This document shows, piece after piece, positions 1-10,664 of a stretch of 64,000 nucleotides of DNA. Each line of letters starts with the position of its first letter. The stretch's first letter is position 1. Source of the stretch: Herpetosiphon aurantiacus DSM 785 (GTDB lineage: Bacteria > Chloroflexota > Chloroflexia > Chloroflexales > Herpetosiphonaceae); NCBI GenBank assembly GCA_000018565.1, contig CP000875.1:1069199-1133198 (forward strand), in the 5' to 3' direction. The notes beneath the pieces were generated by a model. It saw only the letters and a program-made list of their open reading frames with translations, was not told the DNA's origin and did no database searches. The translations under genes were made by a program, and so were the position numbers.

Positions 1-1610
1 CGGATATGCCGTTTGCCGCTGGGGCTAGCTCCTCAGCCGTGATCAATGGCTATGCCTATGTTGCTGGCGGGATTATCAATGGCAGTACAACCACCCGTGT
101 AGCCCGCTATGATCCAGTCGCGAATACTTGGACTGAAGTTGCCGCCATGCCGCGCGGGCGCAATCACGCTGCTTCGGCGACTGATGGTAGCAAATTGTAT
201 GTCTTTGGTGGGCGTGGGCCAGGTAGTGGCGATGGCAATAATGTTGCCAATGGCTTTGATACTGTCCAAATTTACGATCCTGTTGCTAATTCATGGCGCT
301 CAAGCATGACCGATACAACGATTGCGCCGTTGCCGCAAGCCCGTGGTGGGATGGGCAAAGCGGTTTATTATGACGGCGAGTTCTATATTTTTGGCGGTGA
401 AACGCTTGATGGTGCAGGCGCGGTCACTGGCAATGTGTATGATCGGGTTGATATTTATAACCCAATTCTTAACCGCTGGCGCACTGGTTCGCCTATGCCG
501 ACCGCCCGCCATGGCATCTTCCCTGTGATTAACGGCGGACGAATTTATATTGCTGGGGGTGGCACGGTTTCGGGCTTTAGCCAAACCAACATCACCGAAA
601 TTTATAATCCAGGGATTGCTGCCGACGAAAATGCCCACCTTGAAAGCAATGGTCAAGTTGGCTTCGATTCCGAGCAAGTCCACGGCAATACCGCGCGTGG
701 TCAGTGGTCGTGGCAAACTCGCAATGATGTTGATCGGCCTGGCTTCAGCGGCAACAACTACTTGGCGGTCTTGCCCAATACTGGCACCCTTTCGGATACC
801 AATTACACCACGATGGCTCCACAACTGGATTATCGCGTGAAGTTCACCACGCCTGGTACCTATTATGTGTGGCTGCGTGGCTGGGCCGATAGTGGCGGCG
901 ATAATTCGGTGCACCTTGGCCTGAATGGTCAGCAATCAAGCTCATCGGATAAGATGACCTTGCCAATTTTCAGCGCTTGGCGTTGGTTCCGCGATACAAC
1001 CGATGGTGTGCCTTCAACTATCACTATTCCAAGTGCTGGAGTATACACGCTGAATTTGTGGATGCGTGAGGATGGTTTCCGTGTTGATCGCTTGTATCTG
1101 ACGACTGATGTTAATTTTGTGCCAAGCGATGCCCAATTAACCCCAATTCCGACGACTGCACCAACCGCGACGGTGAGCAATCCGACCGCGACCAATACCG
1201 CGACGGCAACCAATACACCAACCAACACACCAACCACCGTGCCGCCAACGGCGACCGATACCGCTACGGCGACCGAGGTTCCAACTAATACGCCAACCGC
1301 CACGACGGTTCCGCCAACGGCAACCGATACTCCGACTTCAACCAATACGCCTGAACCGTCAACCACCGAGCCAGCGACCAACACGCCGACTCCGACGATT
1401 ACGGTGACGGCAACCAATACAACCACGGCTGTGCCGACAACAGCAGTGCCGACAACAGCATTGCCAACCACGGCTGTGCCAACGGTAACTGAGACGCAAA
1501 CTCCGACCGCAACTGTCACAGTAGGCACGATTACGCCAAGTGAAACGCCAACCGCGACAGTCCCGACCAGCGAAACACATCAAGTCTATCTACCTTGGGC
1601 TTCTAAATAA
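1..1610 (+). CDS. Secreted Kelch-repeat protein with Thr/Pro-rich linker, 5' partial
   Basis: The reading frame is open to the left edge, so the true start and any signal peptide lie outside the window. The first ~210 visible residues hold about four Kelch blades: Gly-Gly pairs followed by Tyr and Trp, as in [20 protein letters not shown] and IYNPILNRW. Residues ~215-375 form a beta-rich domain resembling carbohydrate-binding modules ([23 protein letters not shown]). A ~130-residue Thr/Pro/Ala linker with TNTPT and AVPTT repeats follows, ending in the tail [10 protein letters not shown]. Kelch propellers bind ligands or act in galactose-oxidase-like enzymes; no catalytic copper site can be seen in the part present. 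It is probably extracellular. The C-terminal tail resembles those of the proteins at 3943-5703 and 38172-40301. The exact function is unknown. Confidence 0.85.
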
Positions 1611-3942: not shown

Positions 3943-5703
3943 TTAGCGTATAACGAAGGGAGTGAAAATGCTGTAGCGCTCGATTTGTGCATCGGTTGGG
4001 CCGATCATGCTCAAATTATTGTTGGCATCGACTTCAACCAACCAATAGTAATAATGCACATTTGGCTCAGCGTTGGTGTCAAGCCATTGATAGTTGGTTT
4101 GCGCACCCAAGGCTGGAATCAAGTTCTCAGTCACTTGGACGGCGGTCGCTGGGTCATCACTGGTGCTCCGATAGATATGGAAGCCTTGGGTTTCCAATTC
4201 TTGGCTAGTGCTCCAGCGCACTTGAATATCATCGACCCGTACCAAGGCCGTGAAGCCAACCACAGTTACCGCAGTTGGATTGACCAAATCGCTATCGCTG
4301 GCGTTCAATGGTTGGAACACATTGTTCAAGGTATCGTTGAAGGTCAAGGTAACATTGTTGACCACCGGAACCGTGGTGATCGGATCGTTGACGGTTACCT
4401 GAACGTTGAGTGTGCCAACTTCGCCTGGGCGAACTATTTGGGTAATATTGAAGGTCACCACACCAGCAGCATGATTACATGTACCAGTGAATGGCAGATT
4501 AATCGCACAACTGACAAAGGTCGTGTCGGGTGGTAAATTGTCGGTTAAGGTAACGTTGGTTGCACTACCTGGCGTGGCCGTGCTGTTGGAAGTATTGGTA
4601 AAGGCGATGGTGTAATTCAGCGTATCGCCTGGTAAGACCAAGGTAACGCCATCGGTTTTGCTCAAGGCCATGACTGGCGTTGGTGGCTGTTCGTAGTAGG
4701 CTGGTGTGCCAGTTTGGCCTTCTTGAATAAACTGATTGTGATTGCTGGTACAGGTTACGATCCGCCACCAGCCTGAAACTGGGTTATTGATCGTATCGCC
4801 GACGCGGGTGGCTAAGGTTGCGCCAGTGCCATTCCAAATTTGGTCGTTGCTAAGGCTGCCCACGATGCCACCGCTATTGCCCATAGGCGTGTAGCTCGCA
4901 TCACCAGGCGCATAATAACGCACCCGACGGACATTATCGATATCAAAATTATTAAAGCTAACGCTGGGCTGACCAGGAGTAACATATTCATACAAGGTTA
5001 AACATGTGGCGACAACATCTGCTGCACCAGCGTCGTGTTGGAACGAAGCCTGACGCATCCCAAGGGTAATTTCATCGCCAGTACCAGCTACACCATCGAA
5101 ATTATCGGTGTTGGCTGGTGGCGCGTTATTGGGATCAGCGTCGTTATCGCGGCCAACCCGCAAGCGCCAACCATTTTCGTCGTTGCCGGAAGTGGCTGAA
5201 CGCAAAACATACGTACCACAAGTGACAGGTGCGGCAATTGTGTAGAAGCGCAACCATGCCTCAGGCGTGCCAGCAGGCACAAAGGTTTGTTGAATCAAAC
5301 TACCAGCCGCACCTGGGCCAGGCGTTGCTGGAACAACAATCGGCGTGCCAGCAGCATAGAACTCAAATTGCGTATTATCGTACACCCCACCACGAATCTC
5401 GTCGCTGAGGGGGGCATTACTATTCATTTCAGGGCTAAAGATATCGATATGGACTGGCTCAGTGCTCGGCCAAGCACATGGAATATCAACCGTAAAGTAA
5501 TGATAACCATTACCTGCACCTGCCAGACTATTGGTGTACCAATCACCGTTATTCAAGGTATTGGTAGGCCCATTGGTTTGGAGGTACACCGATGCGCCTG
5601 TTGGCGGGATTTCGACGGCTTTGGTTGGTGTGACTAACACTCCCAGCAAAGCCACAAGGCTGAGTAGTGCGAGGCGTTGATAGCGAAAGTGCTGCCGACC
5701 CAT
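3943..5703 (-). CDS. Secreted DUF11-repeat surface protein
   Basis: This 586-residue exported protein has an N-terminal signal peptide: QRLALLSLVALLGVLV, with cleavage probably before VEIPP. Residues ~30-340 form a beta-rich region with several Cys and no family I recognise. Residues ~345-475 match the DUF11/TIGR01451 repeat of bacterial surface proteins (PGDTLNYTIAFTNTSN, TNVTLTDNLPPDTTF). Residues ~485-575 resemble the fibronectin-like domain that starts ..VRWSTSQELETQGFHIYRS and recurs at the C-termini of surface proteins. The last residues, YSIFTPFVIR, match the tail style of two other exported proteins here. AAGGAG precedes the start. It is probably a cell-surface or matrix protein; the ligand is unknown. 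Confidence 0.85.
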   Translation of the reverse strand: MGRQHFRYQRLALLSLVALLGVLVTPTKAVEIPPTGASVYLQTNGPTNTLNNGDWYTNSLAGAGNGYHYFTVDIPCAWPSTEPVHIDIFSPEMNSNAPLSDEIRGGVYDNTQFEFYAAGTPIVVPATPGPGAAGSLIQQTFVPAGTPEAWLRFYTIAAPVTCGTYVLRSATSGNDENGWRLRVGRDNDADPNNAPPANTDNFDGVAGTGDEITLGMRQASFQHDAGAADVVATCLTLYEYVTPGQPSVSFNNFDIDNVRRVRYYAPGDASYTPMGNSGGIVGSLSNDQIWNGTGATLATRVGDTINNPVSGWWRIVTCTSNHNQFIQEGQTGTPAYYEQPPTPVMALSKTDGVTLVLPGDTLNYTIAFTNTSNSTATPGSATNVTLTDNLPPDTTFVSCAINLPFTGTCNHAAGVVTFNITQIVRPGEVGTLNVQVTVNDPITTVPVVNNVTLTFNDTLNNVFQPLNASDSDLVNPTAVTVVGFTALVRVDDIQVRWSTSQELETQGFHIYRSTSDDPATAVQVTENLIPALGAQTNYQWLDTNAEPNVHYYYWLVEVDANNNLSMIGPTDAQIERYSIFTPFVIR

Positions 5704-5909
5704 AAAAACTCCTTGGCGGGTGAAAAAGAACGAAATGTGCTATGACCACATTAACGACATTTGAAAAATAATAGGTATGGTTGAGTAAAGGCCGTAATAA
5801 GTCTAGCGTATTGTATGCAATCAATAGTCCTTTTGCCATCCCCCACGAGAGGCAACTTGAGGCGTAATTATAGGACTAAATTCCCACTAAAGCCACTATG
5901 CCTAGATAG

Positions 5910-6746
5910 TTACTCAATAATTTGACTGGTCACCCGCAGTTCGTAGACGCTTAGACGGAAATCATCTGCCACAATGGTGTGAATTAAGCGCTCGACATTG
6001 GCTATTGTGCTTGGGACAGGCGCAGTTTTTTCGAGAAATAATTGCACAAACACACTTGCCCCATCAGGGTGATAGCCCAATACTACTTCGAGATCAACCA
6101 CGTTGGGCTGATTCAAAATGCCTCGTTCTAGACGACGGCGCAACTCACGTAGATCCCACGCTGGTTGGCGTGGGTCGAGTTCGGGAGCCGAGCCAGCTTC
6201 GTTGGGTTGGCTGTGAGGGGCATTGGGGTAAGGCTGAGTTTTGACCTTACTTTTGAGCGTCAAGATTGCCACGCCCAAACGCTCTTCAACTTCTTCACGA
6301 ATGCTTTGGTGCAGATAGGCCAAGGTATCATTTAAATGCGCGGTTGGGTGCAATTCAAGCTCAGTGTAAATTGCCACACCCTCGCCATAACCTTGAACTT
6401 GGGCTTTGCCGCTGCGTACATCGAGAGCCTGCCCAAGTGCTTGATCAACAGCCCGCTGAATGGTTTGCAAATCGAGTTGGGCATAACCTGAGCCAGTATT
6501 GCGCACGGGTACATATTGACTTTGGCGAATAAACATCTGGGCCAACGCCAACCCAAGCAGCAACAAGCCCCCAATGCCTGCCACAATCCGCGTGGTTGTA
6601 CTATAAATTAACGCTTGAGCACGCAAATATTGGAGCGAACGCAAGGCCAAATCAAAGCTTTGCAGCGGCAGGAGAGCAATCGTGATTGCCAAGACGGCTA
6701 AGGCTAAGGCAATTATTGTCATCGCTAAACGGTTAAATCCTTGCAT
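5910..6746 (-). CDS. AmaP/Asp23-like membrane protein
   Basis: This 278-residue protein has two N-terminal membrane segments (~8-28 and ~55-75), then an Asp23-like domain (~90-165). That domain carries the family pattern of a positive helix, GYGEGVAIYTELEL and SIREEVEERLGVAILTLKSKV. This is the layout of AmaP, which in Firmicutes anchors Asp23 to the membrane during alkaline or envelope stress. A further ~80-residue domain (195-278) with a similar beta-helix pattern follows, so this version is longer than AmaP. It is the last gene of the sigma/FecR/CHASE2 operon, 6 bp after the cyclase gene. A role in the envelope-stress response is inferred from family and context. Confidence 0.7.
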   Translation of the reverse strand: MQGFNRLAMTIIALALAVLAITIALLPLQSFDLALRSLQYLRAQALIYSTTTRIVAGIGGLLLLGLALAQMFIRQSQYVPVRNTGSGYAQLDLQTIQRAVDQALGQALDVRSGKAQVQGYGEGVAIYTELELHPTAHLNDTLAYLHQSIREEVEERLGVAILTLKSKVKTQPYPNAPHSQPNEAGSAPELDPRQPAWDLRELRRRLERGILNQPNVVDLEVVLGYHPDGASVFVQLFLEKTAPVPSTIANVERLIHTIVADDFRLSVYELRVTSQIIE

Positions 6747-6752
6747 GTGCGC

Positions 6753-8549
6753 TTACTCGGCTACTACAATCGCGGCAATTTCCAGCGAGGCTTCCTTGCC
6801 CTTGAGCGCCAATGCACCCATCGGCTGAATCAGGCTTTGTAAATCGCCCAAATCTTCGGCAAGTGTGTCGGGGCCAAGATAAATTGTGTTGGCCGGAGCC
6901 GCGCCACATAAACGGGCTGCTACATTGGTTACATCGCCAATCACGCTATAGTCGTAGCGCTCGTGGGCCCCAACATTGCCCACCACGCCAATGCCGGTGT
7001 TGATCCCAGCGCCAAACGAGGCTTGTGCGGGCAAGGCTTGGGCCGCAGCTGAACGATTAAAGGCCACAATTGCCTCTAATGCTGCCACTGCACCACGAAT
7101 GGCTCGTTGCGCATGGTCGGGCTGGGCGACTGGCGCGTTGAAAATTGCCATAGCTTGATCGCCTGCGTATTGGTTGAGCGTGCCACCATGGCCAATTAAT
7201 GCCTTGGCAATCAGATTCAGGTAGGTATTGATAATTTGCATCATAGCTTCTGGTGGCAAGCGCTCGGATAAATTGGTAAAGCCGCGCATATCCATAAAAA
7301 CAATGCTGACTTCGCGGCGCTCGCCGCCAAGCTGCAATTGACCACGCTCGGCAGCCTTTAATAGCTCGCTGAGCACGCTGGGCGGGGTGCGTTTGGCAAA
7401 AAGTTCGAGCACTTGGGTGTGATCTTGGCGTTGAAGATTGTTTTGCACTAACAGCATCACCAAGCCAGTTAAGCCAATTGCCAACAATGGGCTTGCCAAG
7501 TCGATGCGCAGCAATTGCTGTTGCAAGGCACTGACTGCGCTAATCACCATCACGCTTGCCCCTATCACCATGCCACTAAATAGCAGCCATGGCCGCCGAA
7601 TCATGGCGATTAATGTGAGGGCTAGCACTAAACCAAGCGTAATGAATCGCCGACTGCTAGAGCTTTGTTCACGCAGCGCATTGGCGTTTAAAATTGTGCC
7701 AATCGCATTGGCATGAATTTCAACTCCATCCATTAATGCACTGGTGGGGGTGGTGTAGCGGTCGCCAAGTGCCGCAGCAGTCGAGCCAATCAGCACGATT
7801 TTATCATTGAATAGGGCTGGATCAACCTCGCCGTTGAGCACTGCCAGCAAACTCACTTGCGGATAGGTGTGGTTGGACCCAGCATAATTTAACATAAAGC
7901 TAGAATTATTGACCGGAATTACCACACCATTAGTGAGGGTTGTGGCCGTGGGTTCAATCTGCAAACCTGCTGGGAGATGCCACCATGCTTGAGCACTGGC
8001 TAGCGCAATCGCCGGATAGAGCGCAGTTTGATCATAATGAGTTTGAATGCGCCGCACCACCCCATCGGAGTCGGCAATGATATCGCTATGGGCCAAAACC
8101 ACTCTGCCAGTGACCAATTGCGACGCTGGCTCAATAATCTGGTTGGTCTGGTTATCGCGCGAAACTGCCAAAATTGGGTGCTCTAAGGGTTCGAGCGCTT
8201 GGGTAAACGCTTGATCTCCAGCCGGATTGGCCCCGGTAAATAGCATATCAAAGACGATCACCCGTGCAGCGTGCAGCTTGTCCAACAACCGCGCATAGAT
8301 GCTACGATCCCACTCGGTCAGCCGCCCAAAGCCTGTCTCGTTGCTGAGCGCTTGATCGTCGATGGCGACGATAATAATCGCTGGTTGCGGGCTATAGCTG
8401 GCAAGTTGGCGTACCAATAGATCGGCAGCTGAGCGATCGAGTTGTCTGCGCCAGCCCCAGCTATCGCTCAGCAAGAGGGCTAGCAAACATGCCAGCCCGG
8501 TTGCACTAAACCAGATTCCACGGCGAATTTGTTGCGAACGTAGCACCAA
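6753..8549 (-). CDS. CHASE2-domain class III adenylate/guanylate cyclase
   Basis: This 598-residue membrane sensor has TM1 at ~12-30, an extracytoplasmic CHASE2 domain at ~35-285 (DLLVRQL, VAIDDQAL, IVLIGSTAAALGDRYTTP), three more TMs at ~302-370 and a cytoplasmic cyclase domain at ~412-595. The metal-binding aspartates are present (Asp420 in FMDMRGFT, Asp464 in YAGDQAMAIF). So are the transition-state residues Asn542 and Arg546 (DVTNVAARL). The base-selecting Lys four residues before Asp464 is Gln460, so nucleotide specificity is uncertain. It lies 7 bp after the FecR/LysM gene. CHASE2 cyclases are often adjacent to FecR-domain genes, which suggests a shared extracellular input. It should make cAMP or cGMP. 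Confidence 0.9.
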   Translation of the reverse strand: MVLRSQQIRRGIWFSATGLACLLALLLSDSWGWRRQLDRSAADLLVRQLASYSPQPAIIIVAIDDQALSNETGFGRLTEWDRSIYARLLDKLHAARVIVFDMLFTGANPAGDQAFTQALEPLEHPILAVSRDNQTNQIIEPASQLVTGRVVLAHSDIIADSDGVVRRIQTHYDQTALYPAIALASAQAWWHLPAGLQIEPTATTLTNGVVIPVNNSSFMLNYAGSNHTYPQVSLLAVLNGEVDPALFNDKIVLIGSTAAALGDRYTTPTSALMDGVEIHANAIGTILNANALREQSSSSRRFITLGLVLALTLIAMIRRPWLLFSGMVIGASVMVISAVSALQQQLLRIDLASPLLAIGLTGLVMLLVQNNLQRQDHTQVLELFAKRTPPSVLSELLKAAERGQLQLGGERREVSIVFMDMRGFTNLSERLPPEAMMQIINTYLNLIAKALIGHGGTLNQYAGDQAMAIFNAPVAQPDHAQRAIRGAVAALEAIVAFNRSAAAQALPAQASFGAGINTGIGVVGNVGAHERYDYSVIGDVTNVAARLCGAAPANTIYLGPDTLAEDLGDLQSLIQPMGALALKGKEASLEIAAIVVAE

Positions 8550-8556
8550 ACTGCTC

Positions 8557-9636
8557 CTATGGCTGCGGAATAATCAAAGTTAAACCAATCGGAATCTCAT
8601 CACGATCACGAATGATCGGGTTGGCGTTGACCAAAGCATCAGGGGTGATTCCAAAGCGTTGGGCGATGCCATTGATTGTATCGCCAGCTTGGGTAATGTA
8701 AAGCTGTGGTGTGGCCGTTGGCGTTGCGCTTGGCGTTGCAGTTGGCGTGGCCGTGGTCGTCGCCGTTGGCGTTGGCGTGTTGGTTGGGGTATTGGTTGGC
8801 GTGGCCGTCGCCGTTGGTGTTGGCGTGTTGGTTGGGGTATTGGTTGGCGAGATTTGGGGCTGAACCACCAATGGTTTGGATTGCTCGGCCAATAATTGTT
8901 CGCCAGCCCGCACAAACACCGTTTGACCATCCATCGCCACTTGCACATTGCCCTTGTCGGTGGCATAAAAGGTGGTAGTATTATTGCGCGATTCGACAGT
9001 GAACTCTGTGCCACGGACTGAAGCTGCTGAGGATGGCGTTTCAACTTCGAACTGATCATTTGGCCCAAGCAACCGTTTGACTCCATTGAGCGTGCGGCCA
9101 AACCAAACTTTAAGCCGAATTTGTTGGCCGCCATTTTGGCTATCCATGGTTTCAAGGGTTAGGCGAGCGTTGGCTTGCAAGGTAGTAGTTTGGCCATCGA
9201 AATAAGTAATTAATGCCCGACCGGTTTCAGTTTGAATTGTATCGCCTGGCTCTAAAATGGTTACATCGCCAGCGTTTAAGCGGCGTTCAGCGCCAGTACG
9301 AAGGTTGTTGATCACGGCTGTGCCATCGAAAATTTGCACACTGGCATTATGGGGCACGCTAGGAGCCGATGTGGCTAAGGTGGCGTAGGTAACAAAAAAT
9401 AAAAGAGCAGTTGCCACAATTAATGCAAAAATTTGCGCCCGACTCCATTGCCATTGCCAAATTCGGCGTTTGGTTTTAGGGGCTTTGCGCCGATCACGGG
9501 TTGGCTGAAGCTGGCGAACTTGCTCCAGCTGTTGTTCAAGCGCTTGATTGATGACCTGTTGTTGACTATAGCTAAGCTGTTGTTCAGGCAAGGCCTGATT
9601 AATCGCCTGCTGCAGCTGCTGCTTGGTTGATGCCAT
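8557..9636 (-). CDS. Membrane FecR-domain protein with C-terminal LysM
   Basis: This is a 359-residue single-pass protein. Residues 1-65 are Gln-rich and basic and predicted cytoplasmic. The TM is at ~67-88. The outside part holds a FecR domain (~100-255, with TPSSAASVRGTEF near 200), a Thr/Pro/Ala linker (263-310) and one LysM module (~312-357, YITQAGDTINGIAQRFGI) that should bind peptidoglycan. The start at 9636 has AGGA 5 nt upstream; the frame extends 31 codons further but those lie inside the sigma gene. The start overlaps the sigma gene's 3' end by 38 nt, which implies translational coupling. FecR-type proteins control partner sigma factors; here it could be a wall-anchored anti-sigma. 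That role is inferred. Confidence 0.85.
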   Translation of the reverse strand: MASTKQQLQQAINQALPEQQLSYSQQQVINQALEQQLEQVRQLQPTRDRRKAPKTKRRIWQWQWSRAQIFALIVATALLFFVTYATLATSAPSVPHNASVQIFDGTAVINNLRTGAERRLNAGDVTILEPGDTIQTETGRALITYFDGQTTTLQANARLTLETMDSQNGGQQIRLKVWFGRTLNGVKRLLGPNDQFEVETPSSAASVRGTEFTVESRNNTTTFYATDKGNVQVAMDGQTVFVRAGEQLLAEQSKPLVVQPQISPTNTPTNTPTPTATATPTNTPTNTPTPTATTTATPTATPSATPTATPQLYITQAGDTINGIAQRFGITPDALVNANPIIRDRDEIPIGLTLIIPQP

Positions 9637-10108
9637 AAAATTCCTCTGCCCCAGCAAGCTTGAGCCGTTGCTGGCCTTGCTGTAATAGTTGTTCAGTGGC
9701 GCGTTGGGTGCGACCAAGAATTTCAGCAATCATCGCAACCGATTCATTGTGGCGCAGCTGGAGCAACAGTGCCAAGTGCATGGCTTCGGGCAAATGTTGT
9801 AGCTCGCTAATCAGGCTAGCAGTTTGCGGCGTATGGCCATAATCGCGCCAATGATCAAGAATCACATGGCAGCTGATGGTGTAGAGCCATAAACGCAGAC
9901 CTAGCCGTTGATCAACACTGTGGATGGTGCGAATTGCGGTGGCCCAAACCTTGTTAACAATGTTTTGGGCGAGATCAGCCTGATACACTGCACCCCAAGC
10001 CAAGTTGTAAAGCTCGCCTGACCACTGTTCGGCCAGCATGCGCCACGTTTGTTGATCGCCACGTTGTAATAAGGCGATGATTGCTGAATCGTTTGCTGGT
10101 TGAGCCAT
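9599..10108 (-). CDS. Sigma-70 family (ECF-like) RNA polymerase sigma factor
   Basis: This 169-residue protein has a sigma region 2 (GDQQTWRMLAEQW ... LRLWLYTISCHVILDHWRDY) and a region 4 helix-turn-helix (LPEAMHLALLLQL, ESVAMIAEILGRTQRATEQ). The -10 recognition helix ends in CHVILDHWR. Region 4 is less typical than in standard ECF proteins, so no known ECF group is assigned. The ATG at 10108 is chosen over an upstream TTG at 10144, which would lie in the U-tract of a terminator-like hairpin. Its 3' end overlaps the FecR/LysM gene, its likely regulator. It heads the four-gene operon ending at 5910. Confidence 0.8.
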   Translation of the reverse strand: MAQPANDSAIIALLQRGDQQTWRMLAEQWSGELYNLAWGAVYQADLAQNIVNKVWATAIRTIHSVDQRLGLRLWLYTISCHVILDHWRDYGHTPQTASLISELQHLPEAMHLALLLQLRHNESVAMIAEILGRTQRATEQLLQQGQQRLKLAGAEEFYGINQAAAAAGD

Positions 10109-10140
10109 TGGCTGATACCCATCACTTTCGCACAAACTGA

Positions 10141-10178
10141 ACAAAAAGAATCACGTCGCGCATTTGTGCTGACGTGAT
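10141..10178 (-). terminator. Terminator or attenuator ahead of the sigma gene
   Basis: An 8-bp stem (10150-10157 with 10171-10178) is extended inward by four more pairs. On the minus strand it is followed by TTCTTTTTG. It lies between the Cys-rich gene and the sigma gene, only 33 bp before the sigma ATG. It may end the upstream gene or attenuate the sigma operon. Confidence 0.7.
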
Positions 10179-10208
10179 CGTAGAAGAATGACATTACGGG
10201 ATTGCTAA

Positions 10209-10664
10209 CTAGCCTTCGCGAGCACGCCGCACCGCAGCATTAAAGCCAGCTTCATCGCGATTGATTAGCTTGCGATTTTCGCTGGTTTCCTCAAATTTAG
10301 GGCAGCGTACCGCCAAATATGGGGCGGTATGCGGATCAACGCCCATCACACATGGCACATGTAAGCCAACCCGAAAATGGCTACAATCGCGGCAATCGCG
10401 GGCGCGGCGGGGATCGCCACCAGTTTCATTGTAGTGTTCGGCCAGTGCCCCAATGCTCTCGTAGAGCAACTGCACTTGGCGGCGCAAATCTTCGAGCGCC
10501 AAATTAAAGGCATTATCGCGGTCGTTGGGGCGTGGGCGGCGAATTAAGCCATCGTCTGGTTGGCGTGGTGGGGGCGTTGGGCGTGACGCATCATTACTAC
10601 TCATGGGTTCCTCCTTGGGCGCTTGCGGCGATGCTTTATCGCGCCCCAACCAATTATCCAACAT
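10209..10664 (-). CDS. Hypothetical protein with C-terminal Cys cluster
   Basis: This is a 151-residue soluble protein. The first ~60 residues are Pro/Arg/Asp-rich and probably disordered. A short helical stretch (NLALEDLRRQVQLLYESIGALAEHYNE, about 27 residues) follows, then a compact Cys-rich segment with CRDCSHFRVG, VPCVMGV and RCPKF. Four Cys in this order could bind one metal ion, perhaps zinc. The start at 10664 has AAGGAG 6 nt upstream; a TTG six codons earlier lacks one. I do not recognise the family. It is followed by a terminator-like hairpin, so it is probably a separate unit from the sigma operon. Confidence 0.7.
   Translation of the reverse strand: MLDNWLGRDKASPQAPKEEPMSSNDASRPTPPPRQPDDGLIRRPRPNDRDNAFNLALEDLRRQVQLLYESIGALAEHYNETGGDPRRARDCRDCSHFRVGLHVPCVMGVDPHTAPYLAVRCPKFEETSENRKLINRDEAGFNAAVRRAREG

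Follow-up and report, generated by a model that had tools for sequence, protein, structure and literature searches.

A FecR-LysM protein of Herpetosiphon lies between a sigma factor and a CHASE2 nucleotide cyclase and may serve both

FecR-domain proteins are known chiefly as sigma regulators in iron signaling, and many of them adjoin CHASE2 receptors. What, then, might such a protein do when its gene has a sigma gene on one side and a CHASE2 cyclase gene on the other? The question is raised by a locus of Herpetosiphon aurantiacus DSM 785 (genome of 6,785,430 bases in three contigs), which lies in a stretch of 64,000 nucleotides from contig CP000875.1 (positions 1,069,199 to 1,133,198 of the forward strand; hereafter the window). 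Four minus-strand genes stand there in a row, spanning 10108 to 5910 of the window, and encode a sigma factor, a protein with a FecR domain and a LysM domain, a CHASE2 cyclase and an AmaP-like protein (Table 1). Comparison with other Chloroflexota suggests that the N-terminus of the FecR-LysM protein serves the sigma factor and that its FecR domain serves CHASE2. In its broad form, the proposal that this protein controls the sigma factor inside the cell and the CHASE2 cyclase outside it has, in our judgment, about an even chance of being correct. The locus offers a concrete test of the role of FecR for CHASE2, and also of whether one protein can link second-messenger signaling to sigma signaling at the wall of a filamentous predatory bacterium.

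The open reading frames (ORFs), domains and order of the four genes bear out the initial annotation of the window, as does the overlap of 38 nt between the sigma and fecR genes, which is identical in all six Herpetosiphon genomes. The gaps of 6–7 bp that it gave hold for the cyclase and AmaP-like genes (6 bp), whereas the gap between the fecR and cyclase genes is 7 bp only if the cyclase starts from TTG 8549, and 10 bp from GTG 8546. We prefer the GTG: in three of the six species the frame has no earlier start codon, and in the other three a TTG immediately precedes it. The sigma gene starts at ATG 10108, and TTG 10144 is a possible in-frame opening of its ORF; position 10178, at which the annotated region had ended, falls within an intergenic hairpin and is no start codon of the sigma frame. 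From the spacing of the genes we infer one transcript for all four. The FecR-LysM protein itself has a predicted layout of the FecR type, with the FecR domain (33.9 bits at residues 132–222; Pfam) outside, a single helix and an N-terminus of about 60 residues or more, to which a LysM domain (36.9 bits) is added. Hydropathy places about 64 residues (64–65 among the Herpetosiphon proteins, counted from the likely ATG) before the membrane helix, so that the single-pass protein with a cytoplasmic part of about 65 residues described at the outset stands as a prediction.

How unusual such an N-terminus is can be judged from the other FecR proteins at hand, in which we counted by hydropathy the residues that precede the first membrane helix. 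All nine FecR proteins with a sigma gene as same-strand neighbor (six from Herpetosiphon, two from genome G091 and one from G234) have a long N-terminus of 65–145 residues by longest ORF. Among the 38 FecR proteins without a sigma neighbor, 37 have at most 38 residues before the helix, and the one outlier, L149, has 64 when its longest ORF is used and 29 from its ATG. The contrast persists when Herpetosiphon is collapsed to one lineage (4/4 versus 1/38; Fisher p 4.5e-5) and when the sigma-linked proteins are counted by genome (3/3; p 3.8e-4), in a set that is not random and consists of CHASE2-linked FecR proteins, one weak match and 20 further stretches chosen from the FecR matches of the phylum. 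Four proteins were excluded, two at contig ends (L131, L138) and two in which no helix was detected (L105, L111). The profile did not pick up the FecR protein of L132, which was included by hand on the basis of its position among the FecR matches of the phylum, and one of the 38 (L141) has just 62 upstream bases visible. The comparison lends support to the suggestion, made from the window sequence, that the FecR N-terminus serves the sigma factor. It does not support reading the FecR domain as a sign of sigma control: outside the genus, the CHASE2-linked FecR proteins without a visible sigma gene have almost no cytoplasmic part, and they mostly look like lipoproteins, a lipobox-like motif following the first helix in 16 of 18 by a loose pattern. 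The FecR domain alone was rejected as a marker of anti-sigma function, given the CHASE2-linked FecR proteins without sigma in the phylum. The resulting rule, in which a cytoplasmic N-terminus goes with a sigma neighbor and a lipoprotein with CHASE2 alone, is applicable to FecR proteins in other genomes. A separate arrangement was seen in family f23 (L134, L135 and L139), where tandem single-pass FecR pairs have short N-termini and one FecR protein of each pair is rich in Cys and Gly before the helix; these stretches have no CHASE2-cyclase or sigma match.

The other half of the proposal concerns CHASE2, which occurs in 77 of 400 genomes of the phylum, six of them Herpetosiphon (39 of 201 in a smaller set). 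Seventy-eight CHASE2 stretches from outside the genus were read (L093–L127, L158 and L181–L222), of which 77 remained after removal of L215, which has no cyclase match; four places that were fragmentary or below the cut-off were left out of the survey. FecR is present in 19 of the 77 and lies within 1 kb of CHASE2 in 17, 15 of these on the same strand. One stretch, L158, came to us through the FecR search, and setting it aside leaves 16 of 76 with FecR within 1 kb, against an expectation of about 0.24 for 76 loci, a rough figure based on 72 FecR genes in 32 genomes and on loci that are not independent. In family f11 the FecR/CHASE2 pair is found at 10 of 12 loci, at several of them with FecR directly upstream of the cyclase. 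An SH3_3 protein is encoded upstream at L094 and L099, and one lies directly upstream of the cyclase at L098, where no FecR was found. The 20 non-genus FecR proteins scanned with Pfam all lack LysM, and some contain Ig, cadherin, PD40 or F5/8-type-C domains. At L185 (1550–7079), two tandem FecR lipoproteins are encoded directly upstream of the CHASE2 cyclase.

The complete four-gene set is present in the same order in all six Herpetosiphon genomes, each of which has PF04773 and PF05226 once, in adjacent genes, so that a FecR gene adjoins a CHASE2-receptor gene throughout the genus. Elsewhere the set was found in none of the 77 stretches, 15 of which are shortened by contig ends (less than 2 kb upstream or less than 1.5 kb downstream visible). 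No AmaP match was obtained in the 77, nor was a sigma gene seen near FecR or CHASE2 by sequence queries that could miss an equally divergent sigma factor; the single sigma gene among these stretches (L120) is about 5 kb off and has no FecR with it. Queries with individual proteins gave a similar picture. FecR residues 1–254 matched 7 of 60 related genomes (six Herpetosiphon and one weak match, E 7.6e-4), and the AmaP query matched 8 of the 60, two of them weakly (E about 1e-6). The sigma query matched 37 of 41 genomes, full-length in the six Herpetosiphon and as weak generic matches to extracytoplasmic function (ECF) factors in 31 (best E 2e-7). A scan of named genomes with an alignment of four FecR sequences recovered five loci, three from Herpetosiphon, with H. 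llansteffanensis, H. geysericola and H. giganteus as the close relatives, and two from other Chloroflexota, at which there was no sigma match. The conservation of gene order across Chloroflexota on which the initial annotation had staked its proposal is real within Herpetosiphon and was seen in none of the other CHASE2-cyclase stretches read; among the genomes searched, the four-gene order is confined to one genus.

Both kinds of FecR occur apart in genome G234, which encodes, at L136 (2577–4741), a sigma factor paired with a FecR protein that has a cytoplasmic N-terminus and, at L095 (5633–9618), a FecR/PD40 lipoprotein adjoining a CHASE2 cyclase. A tree of 49 FecR domains places the Herpetosiphon proteins in one group with L136 and the CHASE2-linked L102 and L181 (support 88/83, unstarred). 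The Herpetosiphon locus thus seems to combine two FecR modules that occur apart in other Chloroflexota, and each of the presumed contributors can be compared with it. As in FecI/FecR pairs, a sigma gene adjoins a single-pass FecR protein with, by prediction, about 60 or more cytoplasmic residues; unlike them, the Herpetosiphon protein has neither DUF4880 (not found at E up to 1) nor FecR_C (not found in the Pfam scan), carries LysM in addition and adjoins a CHASE2 cyclase. The sigma-FecR pairs of G091 appear to resemble ordinary FecI/FecR. The FecR-CHASE2 loci of other Chloroflexota (for example L094, L096, L099 and L183–L188) share with Herpetosiphon the position of FecR directly upstream of the cyclase, but there FecR is lipoprotein-like without a cytoplasmic domain, no sigma or AmaP gene is visible and no LysM was found in the proteins scanned.

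The FecR/CHASE2 pairing has also been published for other phyla. The closest counterpart is the Burkholderia BiofilmReg operon, described in the excerpt available of its source as a response regulator, a LysM and FecR protein (COG4254), a CHASE2 histidine kinase and a DUF4136 protein, in that order, with no biofilm production in a strain whose regulator gene is interrupted (PMC5192318). The order of the genes by role is the same as in Herpetosiphon, with LysM and FecR beside a CHASE2 receptor, the start codon of the LysM-FecR gene inside the upstream regulator gene and one further protein at the end (PMC5192318). The two differ in that a sigma factor and a cyclase replace the response regulator and CHASE2 histidine kinase, and in that the Burkholderia FecR protein is, according to the same excerpt, mainly extracytoplasmic and carries a signal peptide (PMC5192318). 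Since a cyclase cannot phosphorylate the sigma factor, the Burkholderia wiring is not transferable and another link is needed. In Campylobacterota, most CHASE2 adenylate cyclases are clustered with a phosphodiesterase, a FecR-domain protein and a tetratricopeptide repeat (TPR) protein (PMC9239204). CHASE2 cyclase and FecR are thus common to both, whereas the portion of that account at hand mentions no sigma factor, LysM or AmaP, and a phosphodiesterase and a TPR protein take part instead (PMC9239204). The CHASE2 cyclases of Sinorhizobium are reported, in the part of the source seen, to answer a plant signal sensed via the outer-membrane protein NsrA (PMC13001267), which provides a precedent for input to a CHASE2 cyclase through another envelope protein. 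An extract on Sinorhizobium also lists a FecR-domain protein among the targets of the cyclic AMP (cAMP) regulator Clr (PMC5498481), and one on magnetotactic bacteria places mtxA before a gene with similarity to CHASE2 and adenylate cyclase (PMC4439547). No description of the sigma-containing FecR/CHASE2 set was found in the open-licence literature searched. The claim that no such system has been described stands for that set within that literature, but does not extend to the FecR/CHASE2 pair, which is already published. The pair is a recurrent module, and what seems new is that a sigma factor takes the position of the regulator.

The cyclase matches CHASE2 at 172.4 bits and Guanylate_cyc at 54.2 bits (Pfam). 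It keeps the class III catalytic residues D420, D464, N542 and R546 (P0003 numbering), which we take to be the metal aspartates (D420, D464) and the transition-state Asn and Arg. The adenine-selecting Asp is likewise retained, and all six Herpetosiphon cyclases have Gln at the position of the adenine-selecting Lys; among 36 other CHASE2 cyclases that were aligned, this position is Lys in 35 and Asp in one. At least one mycobacterial cyclase has Gln here, so the Herpetosiphon enzyme may still be active. There are 12 cNMP (cyclic nucleoside monophosphate)-binding matches in the genome, so possible receivers of a cyclic nucleotide exist.

The sigma protein is divergent. Its Sigma70_r2 match (24.7 bits) lies above the Pfam cut-off of 24, and its Sigma70_r4_2 match (19.1 bits, E 0.0011) below the cut-off of 25.7. 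Alignments with solved ECF factors extend over region 4; these are relatives whose PDB sequences span residues 14–143 and 6–160 and which are of the BldN, AlgU, SigE, SigC and SigW types, several of these names being taken from entry titles. A structure model of low confidence (mean predicted local distance difference test score, pLDDT, 51.5) gave SigW, AlgU, SigH and BldN as its top PDB matches in Foldseek, with E 2.3e-3 at best. By these comparisons, the protein is a divergent member of the ECF group with a predicted role in directing promoter use. All four genes are under purifying selection, the ratio of nonsynonymous to synonymous substitution rates (dN/dS) over four species pairs being 0.11–0.18 for sigma, 0.06–0.12 for FecR-LysM, 0.07–0.09 for the cyclase and 0.05–0.08 for AmaP.

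The AmaP-like protein scores 60.7 bits over residues 1–165 with the NCBIfam model NF033218, for which the equivalog cut-off is 55, and it extends C-terminally past the 166 positions of that model. An internal duplication was considered for this protein and was dropped (hhalign probability 12 percent). In Staphylococcus, loss of AmaP induces a wall stress response, as stated in the excerpt consulted (PMC6954212). The Herpetosiphon operon shares an AmaP-like membrane protein with the staphylococcal AmaP/Asp23 system (PMC6954212), in which AmaP anchors Asp23 and the two genes belong to one operon, but its protein has 278 residues with the C-terminal extension, and there is no Asp23 gene within the four-gene operon; genes with an Asp23 domain occur elsewhere, three per genome, in all six Herpetosiphon genomes.

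A scheme that unites these components can be put forward. LysM would tether the FecR ectodomain at the peptidoglycan. The cytoplasmic N-terminus of about 64 residues would bind and control the sigma factor encoded by the overlapping gene, either as an anti-sigma factor or as a chaperone or activator in the manner of FecR; a FecR-type N-terminus can activate as well as inhibit, because ECF activity in E. coli requires the first 59 residues of FecR, according to the source excerpt (PMC7406223). Outside, the FecR ectodomain would contact the CHASE2 domain of the cyclase, and one change in the wall or envelope might alter both sigma activity and cyclic nucleotide synthesis, with AmaP acting locally at the membrane. 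Wall stress as the signal is a guess, prompted by LysM and by the staphylococcal response to AmaP loss, and so is the role given to AmaP. In its strict form, the scheme describes a two-way transducer, built by fusion of two FecR modules, in which a single event at the envelope determines a second messenger together with a transcription program; we regard this form as possible but would put it forward only tentatively.

Several observations weigh against the proposal. The N-terminus comparison draws on few lineages (Herpetosiphon, the two pairs of G091, and G234) and on a non-random set of FecR proteins, and one of the two G091 pairs, L133, has DUF4880 like canonical FecR. The N-terminus of FecR-LysM has no match to known anti-sigma domains in Pfam, NCBIfam or PDB sequences and no significant similarity to the N-terminus of L136. 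It is also, together with the sigma factor, among the faster-evolving parts, with dN/dS of 0.12–0.19 for the cytoplasmic part against 0.02–0.07 for the FecR domain and 0–0.06 for LysM, the slowest. The structure models of both proteins are poor, and that of FecR-LysM (mean pLDDT 45) was left out of the fold search. The cyclase has Gln in place of the adenine-selecting Lys. No regulon emerged: a −35/−10 pair guessed from the conserved block upstream of the operon had 22 matches in the six genomes, among which the operon's own site alone is common to all six, and the other recurring matches are shared by at most three genomes. Finally, the flanking genes at 10209–10664 and 3943–5703 are equally syntenic in all six genomes; gene order within the genus is therefore weak evidence, and genus-wide synteny alone was rejected as proof of function.

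Some of these points would be accommodated if the operon housed two pathways, with FecR-LysM regulating the CHASE2 cyclase only and the sigma factor controlled transcriptionally or otherwise. FecR/CHASE2 pairs, after all, commonly occur without sigma (FecR is within 1 kb in 17 of the 77 stretches), constraint on the protein is strongest in the FecR domain and LysM, and no anti-sigma domain can be recognized in its N-terminus. Such a division would leave aside the long cytoplasmic N-terminus, which is absent from 37 of the 38 FecR proteins without a sigma neighbor, and the sigma/fecR overlap in all six species, and we consider it rather unlikely. The opposite simplification is a pure sigma/anti-sigma pair of the RsgI or FecI/FecR sort, with the cyclase and AmaP merely carried along or serving as sigma targets. 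It would account for the single-pass architecture and for the overlapping sigma gene directly upstream, and sigma-FecR pairs without a visible CHASE2 cyclase do exist in the phylum (L132, L133 and L136); it does not explain why FecR stands beside CHASE2 far above chance, or why the two are paired in other phyla, and this makes it an unlikely account. A further possibility is that the sigma-like protein no longer starts transcription and is a binding partner, either decoy or adaptor. Its subthreshold region 4 points in this direction, as do the roughly 8 residues (90 to 99) between the Pfam-matched regions 2 and 4, compared with 29 in L136 (93 to 123) and 37 in L132 (88 to 126). However, dN/dS is low in both sigma regions (0.06–0.13 and 0.12–0.19, four species pairs), region 2 scores above its cut-off and ECF sigma factors make up the listed solved relatives, and we judge a decoy or adaptor quite improbable.

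Table 1. Features of the locus, in coordinates of the window
Feature	Coordinates	Strand	Evidence
ECF-like sigma factor, 169 aa, regions 2 and 4, short linker	9599..10108	-	ORF, domains, solved relatives, dN/dS
FecR-LysM protein, 359 aa	8557..9636	-	ORF, domains, hydropathy, conservation by part
FecR-LysM parts: cytoplasmic 1-64, membrane helix ~65-87, FecR region ~94-258		-	predicted
FecR-LysM parts: Thr/Pro linker 259-311, LysM 313-357		-	predicted
CHASE2 class III nucleotide cyclase, 597 aa from GTG	6753..8546	-	ORF, domains, catalytic residues
AmaP-like membrane protein, 278 aa, C-terminal extension	5910..6746	-	ORF, NF033218 match
Conserved intergenic block, hairpin and T-rich tail	10141..10206	-	six-species alignment

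The intergenic block between the upstream gene and the sigma gene is invariant at 61 of its 66 positions in six species, against a regional mean of about 72 percent, although parts of the upstream gene match this conservation. It contains a hairpin, ATCACGTC...GACGTGAT, with T-rich sequence after it, and 32 nt separate its end from the sigma ATG. The block may be the terminator of the upstream gene, an operator or part of the operon promoter. When the 100-nt leader was folded as RNA, the hairpin was present and the overall energy was no better than that of shuffles (z −0.85); an Rfam scan near the operon returned nothing credible.

Two further features of the surroundings deserve mention. Directly upstream of the operon in all six genomes of the genus, 10209–10664 encodes a highly conserved protein of 151 aa with several Cys, for which there was no Pfam match at E up to 1. 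On the other side, between the AmaP-like gene and the gene for a DUF11 protein, a leader-like stretch at 5797–5866 (no Rfam match) is invariant at 67 of 70 positions in six species; no other 70-base stretch of the aligned region is as conserved.

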